Positions 9,459 through 48,609 of a DNA stretch of 64,000 nt are shown one piece after another. This DNA is from an uncultured Flavobacteriales bacterium (GTDB lineage: Bacteria; Bacteroidota; Bacteroidia; Flavobacteriales_G; Salibacteraceae): the NCBI GenBank assembly GCA_937121175.1, contig CAKZKD010000003.1:372001-436000 (forward strand). Direction: 5' to 3'. Numbering within the stretch: the first letter of the stretch is position 1; each line of letters opens with the position of its first letter. Under the pieces are notes generated by a model. It was not told the origin of the DNA. It worked only from the letters and a program-made list of their open reading frames with translations, and ran no database searches. The translations under genes and the position numbers were made by a program.

Positions 9459-10253
9459 TTACTCTTGGTGTTTATCAACTATTGATTCAGGTAAGAAGTG
9501 CATAAATGTGTCGCCTCTTAGTCCAACTCTCAATGTTTCTAACGGGATTACTTCTTCCGGGCCAATGTTTCCGAGGTTTACATTGTGCCCAAATTGGTCA
9601 ATAAACCAAACTTGCTGTGGCTTCTTTGGAGCCTCCCACAGAATGTTCTCTACCTTTATATTGGCAATGATTTTATTTACCAACATGGTGTGAGCTGTTC
9701 CGTTAGGCCTGTAAATACCAACGTTTCCTGACTCTCTCGCTTCCGCAATTACCTTGACACTGCCAGCTTCTAGTTCATCGCGCATCATATTGATCCACAT
9801 TCCGGGACTAATAAAAATACCTTCTTCCTTACTGCCAACTTCACTCAGTACTTCGACCTCCTTGGATAAATCCGCGATTAATTCGCATTTTTTGCCATGG
9901 TCTAAATAAATCGAACCGTCAGAAATCTCCGCACATTCTAAGTTCAATTTGCTTAATAATTTCTTGTAATCGTCATACTTATCACGAATCAAAAAAGCTT
10001 CAAACAAGGTTCCGCCTAAATAAACTTTGATGTTTGCTTCGTGGTATAGCTTTATTTTTTCTTCGATTCGTTTAGTTAAAAATGAAGTTCCAAATCCAAG
10101 CTTTACATAATCTGTAAGGTCTGCAGCTTGTTCTATGAAATCTTCAACTTGTCGAACGCTTAAGCCTTTATCCATCATCATGGTAACACCATTTGCACGG
10201 GGCTTATCAGTTCTTTCGGGTATATAGGGAAGTGTGAAATTCATTTTATGCAA
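9459..10253 (-). CDS. comA: Phosphosulfolactate synthase (ComA family)
   Basis: The protein matches the ComA family over its whole length (264 residues): PRANGVTMMMDKGL near residues 18-31, DYVKLGFGTS (48-57), a YLGGTLFE barrel strand and WEAPKKPQQ near the C-terminus. The family adds sulfite to phosphoenolpyruvate to give (R)-phosphosulfolactate. In methanogens this starts coenzyme M synthesis. Bacteroidota lack that pathway, so here the product may feed sulfolactate, cysteate or sulfonolipid synthesis (inference). The start may be 10253, overlapping the TPR gene stop by 8, or 10244. Confidence 0.88.
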   Translation of the reverse strand: MHKMNFTLPYIPERTDKPRANGVTMMMDKGLSVRQVEDFIEQAADLTDYVKLGFGTSFLTKRIEEKIKLYHEANIKVYLGGTLFEAFLIRDKYDDYKKLLSKLNLECAEISDGSIYLDHGKKCELIADLSKEVEVLSEVGSKEEGIFISPGMWINMMRDELEAGSVKVIAEARESGNVGIYRPNGTAHTMLVNKIIANIKVENILWEAPKKPQQVWFIDQFGHNVNLGNIGPEEVIPLETLRVGLRGDTFMHFLPESIVDKHQE

Positions 10254-11643
10254 AAAAGTCCTTTATATCAACGTCAGCCTTAAGTTGTGGGCAATATTCG
10301 AAGATAGATTGTTTAAGTTTATCGTCAATTATGGACGCGTTTGTCCAATATTCAAAAGCATTATTTTTTCGACCAATCAGAAAGTGGTACGTTCCTAGGC
10401 GGTATATTAAATCGGGTTGTTCAATGAACAAGGCCAAGCCAAGTTCAATCTGTTCTATAGCTTCTTCTTTTTCATCGTTGCAGAACAATAAATCTGAATA
10501 GTCTAAATATATTTCGCTATTGGACGGGTCAAGTTCAATAACCTTGTCGTACGCACGCTTAGCGGCGTCAAAGTATCCCAAAGCTTTACAGATATCCCCA
10601 TATAGATATTGAACAAGGCTATTTTCTGTTTCCAGCTTGAGTGTTTTTTCACAATAATTCAGTGCTTCCTCAGCATCACCTAATTCCAAATAACAGTTTG
10701 CCGCACCAATCCACGCGTCTAGGTGGTCTTCGTCTAATTTTATTGCCTCTTGAAAAGCTTTTTTAGCTTTTCCAAATTTCCCAATGTTTTCAAAGCAATC
10801 TCCAATGTAGAAGTACGTCTGCGCAGCAGGGCCTTCAAGTTCTAATGTTTTTTCAAATGCTTCAATCGCTTCTCTGTATCTTCCCAAACGTCCAAGAATG
10901 TTTCCTTTGTTGTACCACCCAGAGGAAAACTCTTCGAAAGAAATTACGGAATAATCAAAGGCGTTTAAAGCATCATTATAACGCTCAAGAGTCGTGTATA
11001 AGTTTCCTAAGTTGAACCACGCATGGTGGTTGTAGGGATGCTTGTAAAGAAAAGACTTAAAAAACTCAGCACCAGAGTTTTGTGTGCCATTTACTTCATA
11101 GCAAAAAGCCATTTCGTAAAGTCCTTCAATGCTCTCTGGAAATTCATTTAGCAAAACCTTTAACCAGTAAATCGCTTGTGCTGGTTTTTCTAGTGATTGG
11201 CATTCAGCAGCAATTTGAATGTATAATTCCTCCTTGCCCTCGTCGGTAAGTTCCAACGCACGTTTGTAATGCTTAACGGCGGTGTAATGTTCAGCTTTAC
11301 GGCTATAAACCTCTGCTAGGGCGATAAAAATATCTGGATTGAAAGGAAAACTTCCTTCTAGTTTCTTTAGTAAAGCTATGGCTCTGTCCAATTGGTTTTG
11401 CTCCATTAGCACTTCGGCTTTCTTAAGGTTAAGTTCTGCAGATTGTGGATGTTGATTTTGAGCAAAATCTATGGCCTTTGCAGCTTTTTCAAGGCGTAAA
11501 GTGTTGAGGTAGTGGTCAATAATTCCTTCCCATTCAATAACATCAAAATAGTAATAGGCTGAGTCGGAAAACATGTCTTCCAATTTTACCAATCTTTCTT
11601 GGTTATTATTCTCGTTATACGAAGGGTCGAAATCTTCTTTCAT
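10246..11643 (-). CDS. Tetratricopeptide-repeat protein
   Basis: About 465 residues made almost entirely of TPR units, roughly ten to eleven. Typical helix pairs include WYNKGNILGRLGRYREAIEA, YFYIGDCFENIGKFGKAKKA and LYGDICKALGYFDAAKRAY. It has no signal peptide or membrane helix and is likely a cytoplasmic scaffold. I start it at ATG 11643 (MKEDFDPSYN). A further upstream extension is open but hydrophobic and unlike a TPR protein, and it would overlap the promoter region of the divergent gene. It is the first gene of the leftward operon that continues with comA. Its specific partner is unknown. Confidence 0.88.
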   Translation of the reverse strand: MKEDFDPSYNENNNQERLVKLEDMFSDSAYYYFDVIEWEGIIDHYLNTLRLEKAAKAIDFAQNQHPQSAELNLKKAEVLMEQNQLDRAIALLKKLEGSFPFNPDIFIALAEVYSRKAEHYTAVKHYKRALELTDEGKEELYIQIAAECQSLEKPAQAIYWLKVLLNEFPESIEGLYEMAFCYEVNGTQNSGAEFFKSFLYKHPYNHHAWFNLGNLYTTLERYNDALNAFDYSVISFEEFSSGWYNKGNILGRLGRYREAIEAFEKTLELEGPAAQTYFYIGDCFENIGKFGKAKKAFQEAIKLDEDHLDAWIGAANCYLELGDAEEALNYCEKTLKLETENSLVQYLYGDICKALGYFDAAKRAYDKVIELDPSNSEIYLDYSDLLFCNDEKEEAIEQIELGLALFIEQPDLIYRLGTYHFLIGRKNNAFEYWTNASIIDDKLKQSIFEYCPQLKADVDIKDFFA

Positions 11644-11826: not shown

Positions 11827-13215
11827 ATGACATTAATTAAATCGATTTCAGGTATCAGGGGTACTATTGGTGGAAAGCCCGGAGAAGGTCTTACACCTGT
11901 AGATGTTGTGAAGTTTGCATCTGCATTTGGTACATGGGTTCTTAACCGACATAATGGTCAGCGATCAAAAATTGTAATTGGACGCGATGCTCGAATATCC
12001 GGGGAGGTAGTATCTAATTTAGTTAGTTCTACCATTCAAAGTTTAGGAATTGATATTGTTGATTTAGGTTTAACAACTACTCCGACCGTTGAGGTTGCGG
12101 TTACTCACGAAAACGCACAAGCAGGAATTATACTTACAGCAAGTCATAACCCAATTCAGTGGAATGCGCTGAAATTATTAAATGAAAAAGGTGAGTTTAT
12201 TTCTGGAGATGATGGTGCTGAAGTGCTTGATATAGCTGAACGAGAGGCCTTTGAGTATGCCAATGTAAAAAAACTAGGTAAGTACCTTCAGAACGAAACG
12301 TACTTGCATAAACACATCGATATGATTTTGGCGATGGATTTGGTTGACGTGGATGCTGTGCGCAAAAAGCAATTTAAAGTAGTGGTTGACGGTGTGAATT
12401 CCACTGGAGGGGTTTATGTGCCTGCTTTGCTTAAAGCTCTTGGAGTAGAGGTTGTGGAGCTACATTGTCTTCCTACCGGTCATTTTGCTCATAATCCAGA
12501 GCCACTGCCTGAGCATTTGACAGAGATATCAGCCTTGGTTCGCAAACACGATGCTCACATGGGTATTGTAGTGGATCCTGATGTTGATCGATTGGCTTTT
12601 GTTTGTGAAGATGGTGAAATGTTCGGAGAGGAATATACATTGGTTGCTATAGCTGATTATATACTGAGCAAAACCCCTGGGAATACGGTTTCGAATATGA
12701 GCTCAACCAGAGCTTTGAGAGATGTGACTCAAAAACACGGGCAATCCTATACTGCTTCTGCGGTTGGAGAGGTTAATGTTGTTACCGCTATGAAAGCCAC
12801 GGACGCTGTGATTGGTGGAGAGGGTAATGGAGGTATTATTTATCCGGAGTTGCATTACGGTAGGGATGCCCTAGTGGGTATCGCTTTGTTTTTAACTCAT
12901 TTGGCATATCAGAACAAAACCTTGTCGATATTAAAAGCGACCTACCCAAGCTACCATATTTCTAAAAATAAGATTGAACTAACACCTGAAATAGATGTAG
13001 ATAACGTGTTGAATTCCATAGAGAAAAAGTACGGTAACTACCCGATAAATACAGTTGATGGTATAAAGATTGATTTTGATGAAGAATGGGTTCATTTACG
13101 AAAATCCAATACAGAGCCTATCATTAGAATTTATACCGAAAGTGCAAGTGCGAACACAGCAAAAAACCTTGCTAAGAAAATCATTAGTGATATCAAAGAA
13201 ATAATTAAGAACTGA
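11827..13215 (+). CDS. glmM: Phosphoglucosamine/phosphohexose mutase (GlmM-like)
   Basis: An alpha-D-phosphohexomutase of 462 residues with all four landmark loops: catalytic TASHNP (Ser106 at 104-109), metal-binding DPDVDR (250-255), sugar-binding GGEGNGG, and the phosphate-binding KSNTEP near residue 430. GlmM converts glucosamine-6-phosphate to glucosamine-1-phosphate for UDP-GlcNAc. The sugar loop reads GEGNGG instead of the GEQSGH of classical GlmM, so phosphomannomutase activity cannot be excluded. It overlaps the cysteine desulfurase gene by one base (TGATG). Confidence 0.85.
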   Translation: MTLIKSISGIRGTIGGKPGEGLTPVDVVKFASAFGTWVLNRHNGQRSKIVIGRDARISGEVVSNLVSSTIQSLGIDIVDLGLTTTPTVEVAVTHENAQAGIILTASHNPIQWNALKLLNEKGEFISGDDGAEVLDIAEREAFEYANVKKLGKYLQNETYLHKHIDMILAMDLVDVDAVRKKQFKVVVDGVNSTGGVYVPALLKALGVEVVELHCLPTGHFAHNPEPLPEHLTEISALVRKHDAHMGIVVDPDVDRLAFVCEDGEMFGEEYTLVAIADYILSKTPGNTVSNMSSTRALRDVTQKHGQSYTASAVGEVNVVTAMKATDAVIGGEGNGGIIYPELHYGRDALVGIALFLTHLAYQNKTLSILKATYPSYHISKNKIELTPEIDVDNVLNSIEKKYGNYPINTVDGIKIDFDEEWVHLRKSNTEPIIRIYTESASANTAKNLAKKIISDIKEIIKN

Positions 13216-14355: not shown

Positions 14356-15867
14356 TTGAGGCGAATAAGATATTACTGGGACAATAAACCATTAGAGTTT
14401 ATTCTAGTATTGTCTTTTCTTACTCGATTAGTTTCCGTTGTTTTTAGTAAGGGTTACGGAATGCACGATGATCATTTTTTGGTGGTTGAATCTGCACAAG
14501 CTTGGATTGATGGTGACACAGAGTTTCAATGGTTGCCCTCTGAAAGTTCCACTGGTTCACCTTCTGGGCATTCCTGGTTTTACGTCGGTCTTCATTATTA
14601 TCTGTTTCAATTTCTTGATATAATAGGGTTGAATGCTCCGCAAGGAAAAATGTACGTAGTTCGGCTAATTCACGCATTGTGGTATTTGTTGGCAATCAAA
14701 TTTGCCTACAAAACTGTTTTAAAGCTTTCTACAAGCGAAACTGCTAAATGGGTAGGATTGTTTATTGGAGTGCTTTGGTTTACCCCTATTATGAGCGTAA
14801 GAAACCTTGTTGAGGTAGTTTGTTTAACTCCTTTGCTTGGTGCTACCTATTATTTGATAAAAGAAGAGAGGCTTGCCTGGAAGCATATTTTCGCAGCAGG
14901 AATGTTGCTTGGTGTTGCGGTGGCAGTTCGTTTTCAAACCGTACTTTTTGTTGGTGGGATTGGATTGGTGTTGTTGTCTAAGAATGTTATGAAGGCTTTT
15001 GGTTTAGGGGTGTTCTTTGCTATCTCCTTGTTCTTAACTCAAATTGCCGATTTATACTTTTGGGGACAACCTTTCGCTGAATTTTCGGAGTATATAGCCT
15101 ATAACTTTGCAAACAAGACCACTTATTTTTCTCGCCCTTGGTACATGTATTTTGGCACAATATCGGGACTGTTGCTGCCTCCATTTAGTGTTTTCCTTTT
15201 TATAGGTTTGTCTAAAGTTTTTAAGAAAAAGTACTTGTTGTTGGTAGTTCCTTCGTTAATTTTCTTTGGTTTTCACTGCTACTTTCCTAACAAACAAGAG
15301 CGATTCATTATTCCGTTTATTCCTTATTTTATGATGTTAGGCTGGATAGGATGGTCTGAGTTGCTTGAAAGTGGAGGAGTCCACATTCATAAGTGGAATA
15401 AGTACGGAATGCGTTTCTTTTGGGGGTTAAATACGGTTTTATTACTGGCAATAACACCTGCGTACACCAAGAAAAGTAGAGTAGAAGTTATGGAGTTCGT
15501 TGGCGGCGAGGAAGGTTATAGTGGTCTAATCGCTGAACAATCAATTGAATACGAAGTTCCTTTAATGCCTCGGTTTTATTCAGACCATTGGACCAAACAC
15601 TACGACTTAGCCAAAGGGGATGATGTTGCTGCTTTGGTGCAGCGTTACACGCATCCTACAAACAATAAAAGACCAAGTCATATCGCGTTTTTTCAACCGG
15701 ATGAATTGGATGAACGAAAAAAGAAAGTAGAGGTTAATTGTGGTTGTGAGCTGGTTGAGAAGGCCGTAATTGAGCCTAGTTATCTTGATAAATTTGTGCA
15801 TTGGTTAAATCCAGTAAACGATAATGAAATGGCGTTTGTTTACGAGTTAAACTATTTCGATAAATGA
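14356..15867 (+). CDS. Membrane mannosyltransferase-like protein (GT22-like, GT-C fold)
   Basis: A 503-residue protein with about ten membrane helices. The first extracytoplasmic loop carries GYGMHDDHFLVVE, an acidic pair as in GT-C catalytic loops. The motif NKQERFIIPFIPYF resembles the HKExRF motif of GT22 (ALG9/PIG-B) enzymes, which use lipid-linked mannose. It starts with TTG, one base after the iscS stop; no ATG occurs until after the catalytic acidic residues, so TTG is well supported. It forms an ATGA overlap with the next gene. The acceptor is unknown. Confidence 0.8.
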   Translation: MRRIRYYWDNKPLEFILVLSFLTRLVSVVFSKGYGMHDDHFLVVESAQAWIDGDTEFQWLPSESSTGSPSGHSWFYVGLHYYLFQFLDIIGLNAPQGKMYVVRLIHALWYLLAIKFAYKTVLKLSTSETAKWVGLFIGVLWFTPIMSVRNLVEVVCLTPLLGATYYLIKEERLAWKHIFAAGMLLGVAVAVRFQTVLFVGGIGLVLLSKNVMKAFGLGVFFAISLFLTQIADLYFWGQPFAEFSEYIAYNFANKTTYFSRPWYMYFGTISGLLLPPFSVFLFIGLSKVFKKKYLLLVVPSLIFFGFHCYFPNKQERFIIPFIPYFMMLGWIGWSELLESGGVHIHKWNKYGMRFFWGLNTVLLLAITPAYTKKSRVEVMEFVGGEEGYSGLIAEQSIEYEVPLMPRFYSDHWTKHYDLAKGDDVAALVQRYTHPTNNKRPSHIAFFQPDELDERKKKVEVNCGCELVEKAVIEPSYLDKFVHWLNPVNDNEMAFVYELNYFDK

Positions 15868-46629: not shown

Positions 46630-46818
46630 TGGTAAGTTGAATGATTATGGTTTATTAATTTGTAAACGTTTGTAACCCTTTTAAGTTAGTAAGTTTTGAT
46701 TATCAATGATTAACGTTTGTTTGAGTGTTTTTCCATCAAGCGAAATAAGAGAAATTTTTTAAGGGATTTGTTACCTTAGCGAGTTGTTATAGTACATTTC
46801 ACAAGTAACCCAAATAAA

Positions 46819-47409
46819 ATGAACCTTAAATCAATAAAATCGCTCATCCCATTTCTCCTGACCTCAGTATTTACACTTATTTCGGTTTTAACACCTCTTT
46901 TAACTCCCAGCTATGTAAATGCAAATGGTGAAACTGTTTCATCTGGCGTAATCAGTGAAGTAGTCATTGCGGCGTTTTCATTGTCAATTGTAGGCTTATT
47001 GGTTTTGACTAAATCCGTATATTGGAAACATGTATTTCTAATAACTATTTTTCTATCGTGGGGCGGGTTGATTCAATTCGTTCCATTTGGATTTCAATTA
47101 TCATTCGGGTTTATCGTTCTTGATTTCGTTGCTCTCACAATTATGTTTTTTCACCTAATGTTCAACCCTGATTTACTTGATGAAGTATTATCCTATTTAC
47201 CTTCTCGAAAAGCTGAAAAATCTAAACTTGAGGAAATTCAGTTGAACGAAAAAAGAGTTGAACACTTCCAAAATAATTTTAATTCTAAAAGTGAAGCTGA
47301 GCTTAAAAGAATTGTTGAGCAAAATGACCGCGTTCCAGAAGCGGTGGAAGCAGCAAGAAGAATACTCGTTAGTACCAGCGTACTATTACAGCAGCCAAAA
47401 GGCAAATAG
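46819..47409 (+). CDS. Four-helix membrane protein with helical tail (first gene of cassette-like patch)
   Basis: Four hydrophobic segments (about 9-29, 45-65, 70-88, 93-116) are followed by a charged cytoplasmic helical tail. The tail holds a SEAELKRIVEQND...VPEAVEAARRIL motif, a short helical motif I associate with Bacteroidota membrane proteins. Function unknown. The last eight or so codons (LLQQPKGK) lie inside the 63-bp direct repeat, so the repeat supplies the stop codon; this suggests the 3' end was fused to the repeat. Confidence 0.75.
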   Translation: MNLKSIKSLIPFLLTSVFTLISVLTPLLTPSYVNANGETVSSGVISEVVIAAFSLSIVGLLVLTKSVYWKHVFLITIFLSWGGLIQFVPFGFQLSFGFIVLDFVALTIMFFHLMFNPDLLDEVLSYLPSRKAEKSKLEEIQLNEKRVEHFQNNFNSKSEAELKRIVEQNDRVPEAVEAARRILVSTSVLLQQPKGK

Positions 47410-47450
47410 GGCGGCTTGTGTAAATTTGAAACCAATGAAATTTAATAACC
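47388..47450 (+). repeat. Direct repeat copy 1 of the cassette-like element
   Basis: Runs from ACAGCAGCCAAAAGGC to AATTTAATAACC and matches copy 2 (48082-48145) at about 59 of 64 aligned positions, with one gap. Its 5' part can fold as AGCAGCC/GGCGGCT around a small inner GCC-AAAA-GGC hairpin; its 3' part is AT-rich with TTGAAAC. It overlaps the end of the preceding ORF. Confidence 0.85.
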
Positions 47451-47514
47451 CAAACCCAAGACCCGAAGAGTGCACCACGAAAGGCCTACTTCTCATGGCC
47501 GCGGGGCGTTACTA
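47443..47514 (+). other. 72-bp imperfect palindrome, element 1 (attC-like)
   Basis: Starts TAATAACC and ends GGGGCGTTACTA: the outer arms TAATAAC/GTTACTA pair at 6 of 7 positions and AACCC faces GGGG inside. GGCC (47483-47486) and GGCC (47497-47500) form an inner stem. The interior sequence differs from element 2 but the length, 72 bases, is the same. AATAGG follows shortly (47530-47535), as it does in element 2. Confidence 0.5.
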
Positions 47515-47536
47515 GCAACCTCTGGCCGCAATAGGA

Positions 47537-48079
47537 ATGAATAAAATAATATCAATATTAGCTTTACTCGGGTTTGTTAGCATCATGCATGGTGAAACGA
47601 TTGATACAACCTCAGTTGACTCCGTGCTTCAAATATCGCAATCAGTAAATCCAACGGAAACCGAAATTCAAGACGATTTTTCCCCTATGCAATTTGCAAT
47701 GGTTGCCATTCTCGGAGTTCTTGTATTAATGGCTGTTGGAGCTGGAATTGTAATCACAGTAATTCTCCTTTTAATTTTATTTGGTTTAGTTTCAGCAGGG
47801 ATTGTTTCGACTTCCATTCTTGTTGGATTACAACAAAAATCAATTAAAAAAGGCTTTAAGTCATCCATTATTCTCGCAGGAGCTGTTACGGGAACATTTG
47901 GAGGAGCTATTCTGCTAATAATAATTAATAAGATTCAGCACTATACCTCTTCTTTAAACGCGGGAATCGTTGGCGGATTAACTGGATTGGTCGGCGGCCT
48001 TATTCTTGGCTTTTTAGCATTTACGATAATTAAGAGATTGACCGAGTGGTTCAAGAAGAAAATTCAAACCGGCAGCTAG
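47537..48079 (+). CDS. Exported/membrane protein of unknown function inside the repeat-bounded cassette
   Basis: A 180-residue protein with a signal peptide-like start (IISILALLGFVSIMHG), a Thr/Ser/Glu-rich stretch (about 20-48) and three to four membrane helices (about 52-88, 90-100, 112-130, 143-165) rich in Gly and Val; the C-terminus is basic (RLTEWFKKKIQ). I do not recognise a named family. It sits alone between the two direct repeats, about 86 bases after repeat 1 and 2 bases before repeat 2, the arrangement of a single-gene cassette. Confidence 0.75.
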   Translation: MNKIISILALLGFVSIMHGETIDTTSVDSVLQISQSVNPTETEIQDDFSPMQFAMVAILGVLVLMAVGAGIVITVILLLILFGLVSAGIVSTSILVGLQQKSIKKGFKSSIILAGAVTGTFGGAILLIIINKIQHYTSSLNAGIVGGLTGLVGGLILGFLAFTIIKRLTEWFKKKIQTGS

Positions 48080-48081
48080 TA

Positions 48082-48145
48082 ACAGCAGCCACAAGGCAAA
48101 TAGGGCGGCTTATTGTAAATTTGAAACGAATAAAATTTAATAACC
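48082..48145 (+). repeat. Direct repeat copy 2 of the cassette-like element
   Basis: About 92% identical to copy 1 (47388-47450), starting 694 bases downstream of it. Differences lie in the small loop, one extra A after GGCGGCTT, and three substitutions in the AT-rich part. The repeat starts three bases after the stop of the preceding ORF. Confidence 0.85.
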
Positions 48146-48209
48146 ATACGTCGAGCGTCGGAGAGGTCACCATAAAGGTGCCAGTTGTGGCTTCGACATG
48201 TTGGTACTA
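48138..48209 (+). other. 72-bp imperfect palindrome, element 2 (attC-like)
   Basis: Starts TAATAACC and ends GGTACTA. GTCGAGC (48150-48156) pairs with GCTTCGAC (48190-48197) with one extra base, and GGTCACC (48165-48171) pairs with GGTGCC (48177-48182) with a bulge around loop ATAAA. Unpaired single bases on one arm recall the extrahelical bases of integron attC sites. A GTTAAAT (fits GTTRRRY) lies just beyond at 48214-48220. Confidence 0.5.
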
Positions 48210-48231
48210 ATAGGTTAAATATCAAATAAAG

Positions 48232-48609
48232 ATGAAAGTTACTCTCGAAAAAAATGAAAAAGTCGCTAATATGATTTTTGCATCTATTTATCCGTTGTAC
48301 TTAAATAGATTGGAGAAGAATGGTAGAACAAAAGAAGAACTCAATCAAGTAATCGAATGGTTTACTGGTTTTGATAAAGCGGCTTTAGAAGCTCTTATTG
48401 AAGAGAAGGTAACGTTTAGAACATTTTTTCAAAAAGCTAAAATTCATTCAAATGCACACTTAATTAAAGGAGTTGTTTGTGGATACCGAATAGAAGAAAT
48501 AGAAGATGAATTTGAGTTGTACAAACAATGCAGACGCATGGAAAAACTCATTGATGAATTGGCCAAAGGACGAAAAATGGAGAAGATTTTACGCAAAGAA
48601 AAAAAGTAG
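48232..48609 (+). CDS. DUF2200 family protein
   Basis: IFASIYPLYLNRLEKNGRT, VIEWFTGFD, HLIKGVVCGYRIEEIEDE and KLIDELAKGRKMEKIL match DUF2200 from end to end in 125 residues. The family is small, cytoplasmic and of unknown function. It is the third gene of the cassette-like patch, 22 bases after element 2, but no repeat follows it; uvrA comes in the opposite direction 51 bases later. Confidence 0.88.
   Translation: MKVTLEKNEKVANMIFASIYPLYLNRLEKNGRTKEELNQVIEWFTGFDKAALEALIEEKVTFRTFFQKAKIHSNAHLIKGVVCGYRIEEIEDEFELYKQCRRMEKLIDELAKGRKMEKILRKEKK

Follow-up and report, generated by a model that had tools for sequence, protein, structure and literature searches.

Repeats in a Flavobacteriales genome as attC-type sites of a probable integron-like system of Bacteroidota with an I2-less recombinase

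The window, a stretch of 64,000 nucleotides from an uncultured bacterium of the order Flavobacteriales, presents two tandem cassettes followed by a possible last cassette or old flank, all on the forward strand. Cassette 1 (46787..47508) begins at G46786^TTATAGTACATTT and closes with an attC-like site (site 1). Its 5′ end TAGTAC-A matches the 3′ end CCAGCGTACTA (TAGTAC-G), located before TTACAG and read as its reverse complement, with the same mismatch at position 7 as in other cassettes (see below). Cassette 2 (47509..48200) starts with TTACTAGC, ends with GCTAGTAAC plus a degenerate attC-like site (site 2) and has complementary ends as well (CTAGC/GCTAG). The ORF of cassette 1 (46819-47409, 196 aa) corresponds to no Pfam family above the cut-off, and that of cassette 2 (47537-48079, 180 aa) has no Pfam match. 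The stretch beyond (48201..48609) begins with TTGGTACTAATAGG and contains, directly behind site 2, an ORF (48232-48609) encoding a DUF2200 protein (PF09966; Pfam score 156 bits). No closing site was found behind this ORF, and our site model R1 gives no further match in the window.

Site 1 (47386..47511) extends from the R″ box TTAC (47386-47389) to the R′ box GTTA (47508-47511), its right arm ending in GGCCTACTTCTCATGGCCGCGGGGC. It scores 105.9 bits (E = 2.9e-24) with model R1, whose training set included it, and 24.0 bits with a second model, R2. Comparison of its arms with those of 62 other sites identified it as a hybrid of a family-A left arm and a family-B right arm; the left arm is that of the AAGGCAAATAGGGC family and the right arm that of the GGCCTACTTCTCATGG family. 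The L stem of site 1 pairs poorly because its arms come from two families, and the hybrid perhaps originated by exchange through the shared central sequence GTAAATTTGAAAC. Site 2 (48080..48203; R″ TAAC 48080-48083, R′ GTTG 48200-48203) has a normal left arm and a diverged right half; it was not in the training set of model R1, which detects it with 36.8 bits (E = 1.2e-6).

A previous sequence-only reading of this region had described two palindromes of 72 bp attached to a 64-bp repeat and proposed that these resemble attC sites, with conserved ends and variable interiors that fold as single strands. The repeat is indeed present in two copies, starting at 47388 and 48082 and both running into TAATAACC, and the two 72-base stretches do end in GTTACTA and GGTACTA. 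As folding units these stretches behave about like shuffled sequences, with z-scores between -1.78 and +0.98 (47443-47514: -0.04 for the top strand and +0.98 for the bottom strand; 48138-48209: -1.08 and -1.78, respectively), and the palindromes are largely accidental. AATAGG, which was said to follow both of them, is located about 15 nt beyond the first stretch and partly inside the second, whose end it overlaps. The true site runs from TAACAG (R″) to GCGTTA (R′): the 64-bp repeat is its left arm and the 3′ end of the site its right arm, the terminal GCCGCGGGGCGTTA pairing with the start of the repeat, TTACAGCAGCC. The central idea of attC-like sites was thus retained with new boundaries, and additional copies do present conserved ends and strong covariation on these boundaries. 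The palindromes looked odd because site 1 is a hybrid and the right half of site 2 has diverged, which also makes these two sites poor examples of their class.

The host genome contains 55 DNA matches to the region. A motif search for site ends separated by no more than 330 nt retrieved 66 pairs, of which 64 span 120 nt or more; both counts far exceed chance. More than 60 such sites are organized in co-oriented arrays, separated by ORFs or short gene-less stretches. The aligned sites measure 124-129, 173 or about 195-212 bases from the initial TAACAG to the final GCGTTA, and nearly all carry the TAAC/GTTA R boxes. Rfam has no match in three of the host arrays or in the window region. On the bottom strand of 31 short sites, TAAC pairs with GTTA, followed by an asymmetric unpaired spacer (GCCCC versus T) and by a covarying stem that ends in a variable terminal structure and carries a 2-nt bulge on the L″ side, where two additional bases interrupt it. 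This anatomy agrees with that of published attC sites (PMC2727003), which share the R boxes, the unpaired central spacer, the conserved G after AAC and the variable terminal structure.

In the alignment of the 31 host sites, 93.1% of the cells in paired positions are paired, versus 78.2% after shuffling, and 111 changes are double-sided, versus 41 (0 of 500 shuffles); shifting the partner by 1-3 columns reduces the pairing to 33-51%. Among 24 sites from distant genomes, 94.9% of the cells are paired (71.0% for the control), a value inflated by the selection of many of these sites in structure-aware searches, and double-sided changes affect 14 of the 15 L-stem pairs. The L stem of the distant sites is nearly perfect, and most of them have fixed G-T pairs and no bulge. 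A single stem position is G-U in all 31 host sites and in 23 of the 24 distant ones; on the top strand it corresponds to an A/C mismatch, so that the G-T pairs only exist on the bottom strand. Folding energies also favour the bottom strand, which is the more stable one in 57 of 63 sites, with a mean difference of 2.3 kcal/mol. Recombination of the bottom strand only would fit both this bias and the fixed G-U pairs. Individual sites fold modestly better than shuffled sequences (mean bottom-strand z of -1.57); minimum-energy folding is a weak test because the interiors are long and variable, and covariation and cassette ends are much stronger evidence.

The bases that follow the inferred crossover point G^TTA are complementary to those that precede TAAC in the same cassette. 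In 70 cassettes, a mean of 4.86 of 6 positions are complementary, versus 1.91 in shuffled controls, a value reached by none of 5000 shuffles. Position 7 is almost always A/C, which corresponds to a G-T pair on the bottom strand. Of 32 neighbouring pairs at 12 distant loci, 17 reach at least 5 matching positions out of 6, where 0.96 would be expected; undetected intervening sites may explain many of the non-matching pairs. One cassette is present twice on host contig C1, in copies 97% identical located behind different sites. The two copies diverge right past GGGGCG^TTAG, with unrelated sequence upstream, which is evidence of base-precise movement. The cassettes are bounded at G^TTA by attC-type sites with R″ and R′ boxes, in arrays of a single orientation.

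The array of contig C1 starts directly behind a tyrosine recombinase gene transcribed from the same strand. Seven genomes of our first survey encode relatives of this recombinase with the same arrangement, gene and sites having the order and orientation seen in C1. At named loci, all 11 matches of model R1 are located downstream of the recombinase on the same strand, and a sequence-independent scan around recombinases of the family gave 16 downstream sites in the orientation of the gene and 0 in the opposite one, versus 1 and 0 upstream. Some recombinase loci have no sites in the stretch scanned, and many contigs break off no more than about 3 kb past the recombinase gene, as repeats would cause. 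At most loci, an attI-like sequence is present just past the stop codon of the recombinase gene; its usual forms are TATAACGAG^TTA and a palindromic variant with G^TT at its end. This candidate attI, assigned from sequence alone, adjoins the gene, and its G^TT starts the first cassette.

The recombinase gene of C1 (L032:6485-7751) is frameshifted in this assembly, and that of a same-genus genome, G002 (L070:15085-16293), contains an in-frame TGA stop codon; the copy of a genome from the same family (L077) is intact. The defects may stem from decay, assembly error or another cause; these copies may be dead, and their arrays either fossil or dependent on a recombinase acting in trans. The region upstream of the C1 gene (L032:7780-8400) contains several direct repeats, imperfect and about 240 bases long (CCTCAAAAGGAAACAAAAACGCTTTGGAGG), which are unrelated to the attC-like sites. 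A second complete system is present on host contig C4 (84246-107883; L052:6247-14001 and L193), with an intact recombinase gene followed by attI. Its first cassette, of 6 kb, encodes a DNA cytosine methylase, an ATPase-like protein, a helicase with similarity to MzaC and one more protein; it is closed by a site with matching ends and followed by five further sites, six in all. A cassette gene of the C1 array (L032:4420-5289) matches the PADLOC candidate defence family PDC-S35 (294 bits) and, weakly, TIR effectors. Defence genes seem to be part of the cassette cargo.

Model R2, built from the distant sites and used with a threshold of E ≤ 0.001 (E-values are rough, from a short calibration), has matches in 158 of 197 Bacteroidia genomes sampled (about 80%), with three or more in 127 of these 158, and in 24 of 80 genomes from another class of the phylum. 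All five named Bacteroidota were positive, with 10-28 matches each, and none of 24 genomes from outside Bacteroidota, five of which encode IntI-type recombinases, had a match. The recombinase, attI and several sites are also found in this order on a complete Chryseobacterium plasmid (NZ_CP041688.1); a structural scan detected no array on plasmids of Chryseobacterium oryzae or Pontibacter. The automatic NCBI name of the protein from NZ_CP041688.1, ‘site-specific tyrosine recombinase/integron integrase’, hints at integrons; the system itself is not worked out there. This plasmid (L182) contains three near-identical 142-bp sites (10171-10312, 12266-12407 and 14647-14788). The same stretch without genes, GGGAAAAATCGCCC..GGGACGATTTTTCC, precedes each of them; its two ends are perfectly complementary, and it is apparently a gene-less mini-cassette inserted several times.

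The catalytic part of the recombinase has its best match with XerA, both in sequence and in fold. The three members scored individually with the XerA-type model NF040815 obtained 201, 217.8 and 210.7 bits, just below the cut-off of 220. Membership of the XerC and XerD families was rejected (175 and 173 bits for cut-offs of 330 and 335, and a separate position in the tree). TIGR02249, the IntI model, is a strong secondary match; it aligns with the family in two pieces and below cut-off, leaving the IntI-specific stretch unmatched. The spacing between KGxKDR and HxxRH is 57-59 residues in all 18 members measured, versus 100 in all 11 measured IntI proteins, so the 42-residue I2 insert is missing from the former and present in the latter, and the integrase of a strictly defined integron is lacking. 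(An apparent gap of 100 in L105 and L106 was a pattern artefact; their sequences show about 58.) The recombinases also share an N-terminal domain of their own that we did not see in IntI. The AlphaFold model (pLDDT 83.5, pTM 0.58) matches the XerA and IntI folds; its domain arrangement is uncertain, and the absence of I2 was established independently of it. Outside of Bacteroidota, plasmid matches to the recombinase (in Acinetobacter, Rhizobiaceae and others) cover the catalytic part only. In a tree of 105 proteins, unrooted and obtained by a quick method, IntI proteins form one fully supported clade (including a partial IntI-like protein, L175), and the Bacteroidota recombinases branch outside of it, within a larger group that includes XerA-like proteins and IntI and is separate from XerC/XerD.

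These data point with high confidence to an integron-like system of Bacteroidota in which a recombinase encoded upstream of the array acts on folded attC-type sites. What can be read directly from the DNA and protein sequences is the anatomy of the sites, their covariation and bottom-strand bias, the base-precise boundaries, the way in which recombinase, attI and array are ordered and oriented, and the absence of I2. We infer the recombinase as catalyst, a single-stranded substrate and junction resolution by replication. In the mechanism that we propose, the tyrosine recombinase, whose gene directly precedes the array and has its orientation, would recognize the folded bottom strand of a site, in which R″ and R′ form a duplex of TAAC/GTTA and about 6 further bp specific to the cassette, followed by the unpaired spacer and the long L stem. 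Strand exchange would take place at G^TTA with a double-stranded attI-like site directly after the recombinase's own stop codon, resulting in cassette insertion or excision, and the junction would be resolved by replication. With I2 absent and most distant sites free of a bulge, the strand could be marked by the fixed wobbles, which are located in the L stem except for one in the R stem. The repeats of the window would then be attC-type sites of a small satellite array, the main arrays being elsewhere in the host genome; together with the full integron-like explanation, we consider this very likely.

The recombinase could also be an integron integrase by descent that secondarily lost I2, making the system neither independent of known integrons nor older. 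This origin would be compatible with the mechanism proposed above, and it is suggested by the common tree group formed apart from XerC/XerD and by an SPxD motif near the C-terminus that the recombinases have in common with IntI. We nevertheless consider it unlikely, given the position of the Bacteroidota recombinases outside of the IntI clade in this unrooted, quick-method tree and their own N-terminal domain. The similarity of the catalytic domain to XerA, together with the nearly perfect, bulge-free L stems of the distant sites, could alternatively indicate that the palindromic sites are double-stranded or cruciform dif-like targets of Xer-like recombination. This is rather improbable: the fixed G-T pairs are specific to the bottom strand, the spacer is asymmetric, and the covariation of the arms and the cassette-specific part of the R boxes, complementary only within one cassette, would be needless for a double-stranded site.

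The published attC features of the sites and the secondary match to TIGR02249 would be expected of a classical integron whose true IntI was missed or lost from the genome (CALIN). We detected no IntI above cut-off in the host genome or in 42 genomes of its order, and the recombinase that does adjoin the arrays has no IntI insert and branches outside of IntI. Model R2 was, in addition, blank in the five genomes from outside the phylum that encode IntI-type recombinases. This reading, to which we give very little credence, is already largely refuted. In the phylum as a whole, IntI was detected above or near the cut-off in 84 of 296 genomes, 83 of them from other classes and one from the same class; true IntI is common in these other classes (L064, L090-L101), unlike in literature surveys, which used fewer genomes. 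Finally, in a reading without any site-specific recombinase, the repeats would have spread by ordinary homologous recombination or would be hairpins with a different function, such as terminators or REP-like elements. The frameshift in the C1 gene fits this reading, as does the hybrid site 1, a form that homologous exchange would make; the reading is hardly credible in view of the cassette-specific complementary ends, the base-precise breakpoints, the strict orientation and recombinase linkage, and the presence of the whole arrangement on a plasmid.

We conclude that the integron-like system of Bacteroidota corresponds to a second, I2-less integron lineage, which resembles integrons in nearly every anatomical feature examined and lacks the integrase that strictly defines them. 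It is rather probable that this is a second kind of integron present throughout the class Bacteroidia, whose recombinase never had I2 and in which fixed G-T wobbles replace extrahelical bases. The I2 helix of IntI docks extrahelical bases and impedes second-strand exchange (PMC7790495); it is held to be the innovation that permitted single-strand recombination, and its origin has been called a chicken-and-egg paradox (PMC4792948, PMC7790495). The present system, a natural example lacking I2, makes the origin of this helix testable, and, if the proposal is correct, single-strand cassette recombination either arose twice or preceded I2. Integrons are almost absent from surveys of Bacteroidetes, in which only In0 elements were first reported and then a single complete integron, in Salinibacter (PMC9024848), and standard integron software requires the IntI-specific domain (PMC9668308). 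In the literature covered, which did not extend to preprints or to the majority of subscription journals, we found no description of this I2-less system of Bacteroidota; an earlier one may exist. Sites with attC anatomy are present in most Bacteroidia genomes sampled, on chromosomes as well as on a Chryseobacterium plasmid, in a group thought to be nearly free of integrons, and they point to a large unexamined pool of cassettes, defence genes included, in a dominant bacterial group.

Among known systems, the closest are integrons, especially sedentary chromosomal ones with long attC sites, which likewise have a co-oriented array, a G^TTA boundary, R″ and R′ boxes, a spacer, an L stem and a variable terminal structure, and further resemble the present system in the G after AAC of R′, the bottom-strand bias, the recombinase and attI located at one end and the defence genes among the cassettes. 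Unlike that of integrons, the Bacteroidota recombinase has no I2, carries an extra N-terminal domain, is transcribed towards the array and is not recognized by TIGR02249; most of the distant sites have fixed G-T pairs and no extrahelical bulge, and R-box pairing is longer by about 6 cassette-specific bases. The catalytic part, with about 58 residues from KGxKDR to HxxRH, most resembles that of XerA, the archaeal type of Xer recombinase (NF040815; PDB 4A8E and 5HXY), from which the family differs by its scores just under the NF040815 cut-off in the members scored, by its extra N-terminal domain and by its location before cassette arrays. CTXphi and IMEX, in which XerCD acts on folded single strands, offer a parallel for a folded single-strand site, putative in our case, used by a recombinase without I2 (PMC4792948, PMC7790495). 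Whereas CTXphi borrows the XerCD of its host and has no cassette array, the system described here has a dedicated recombinase linked to attI and to many cassettes.
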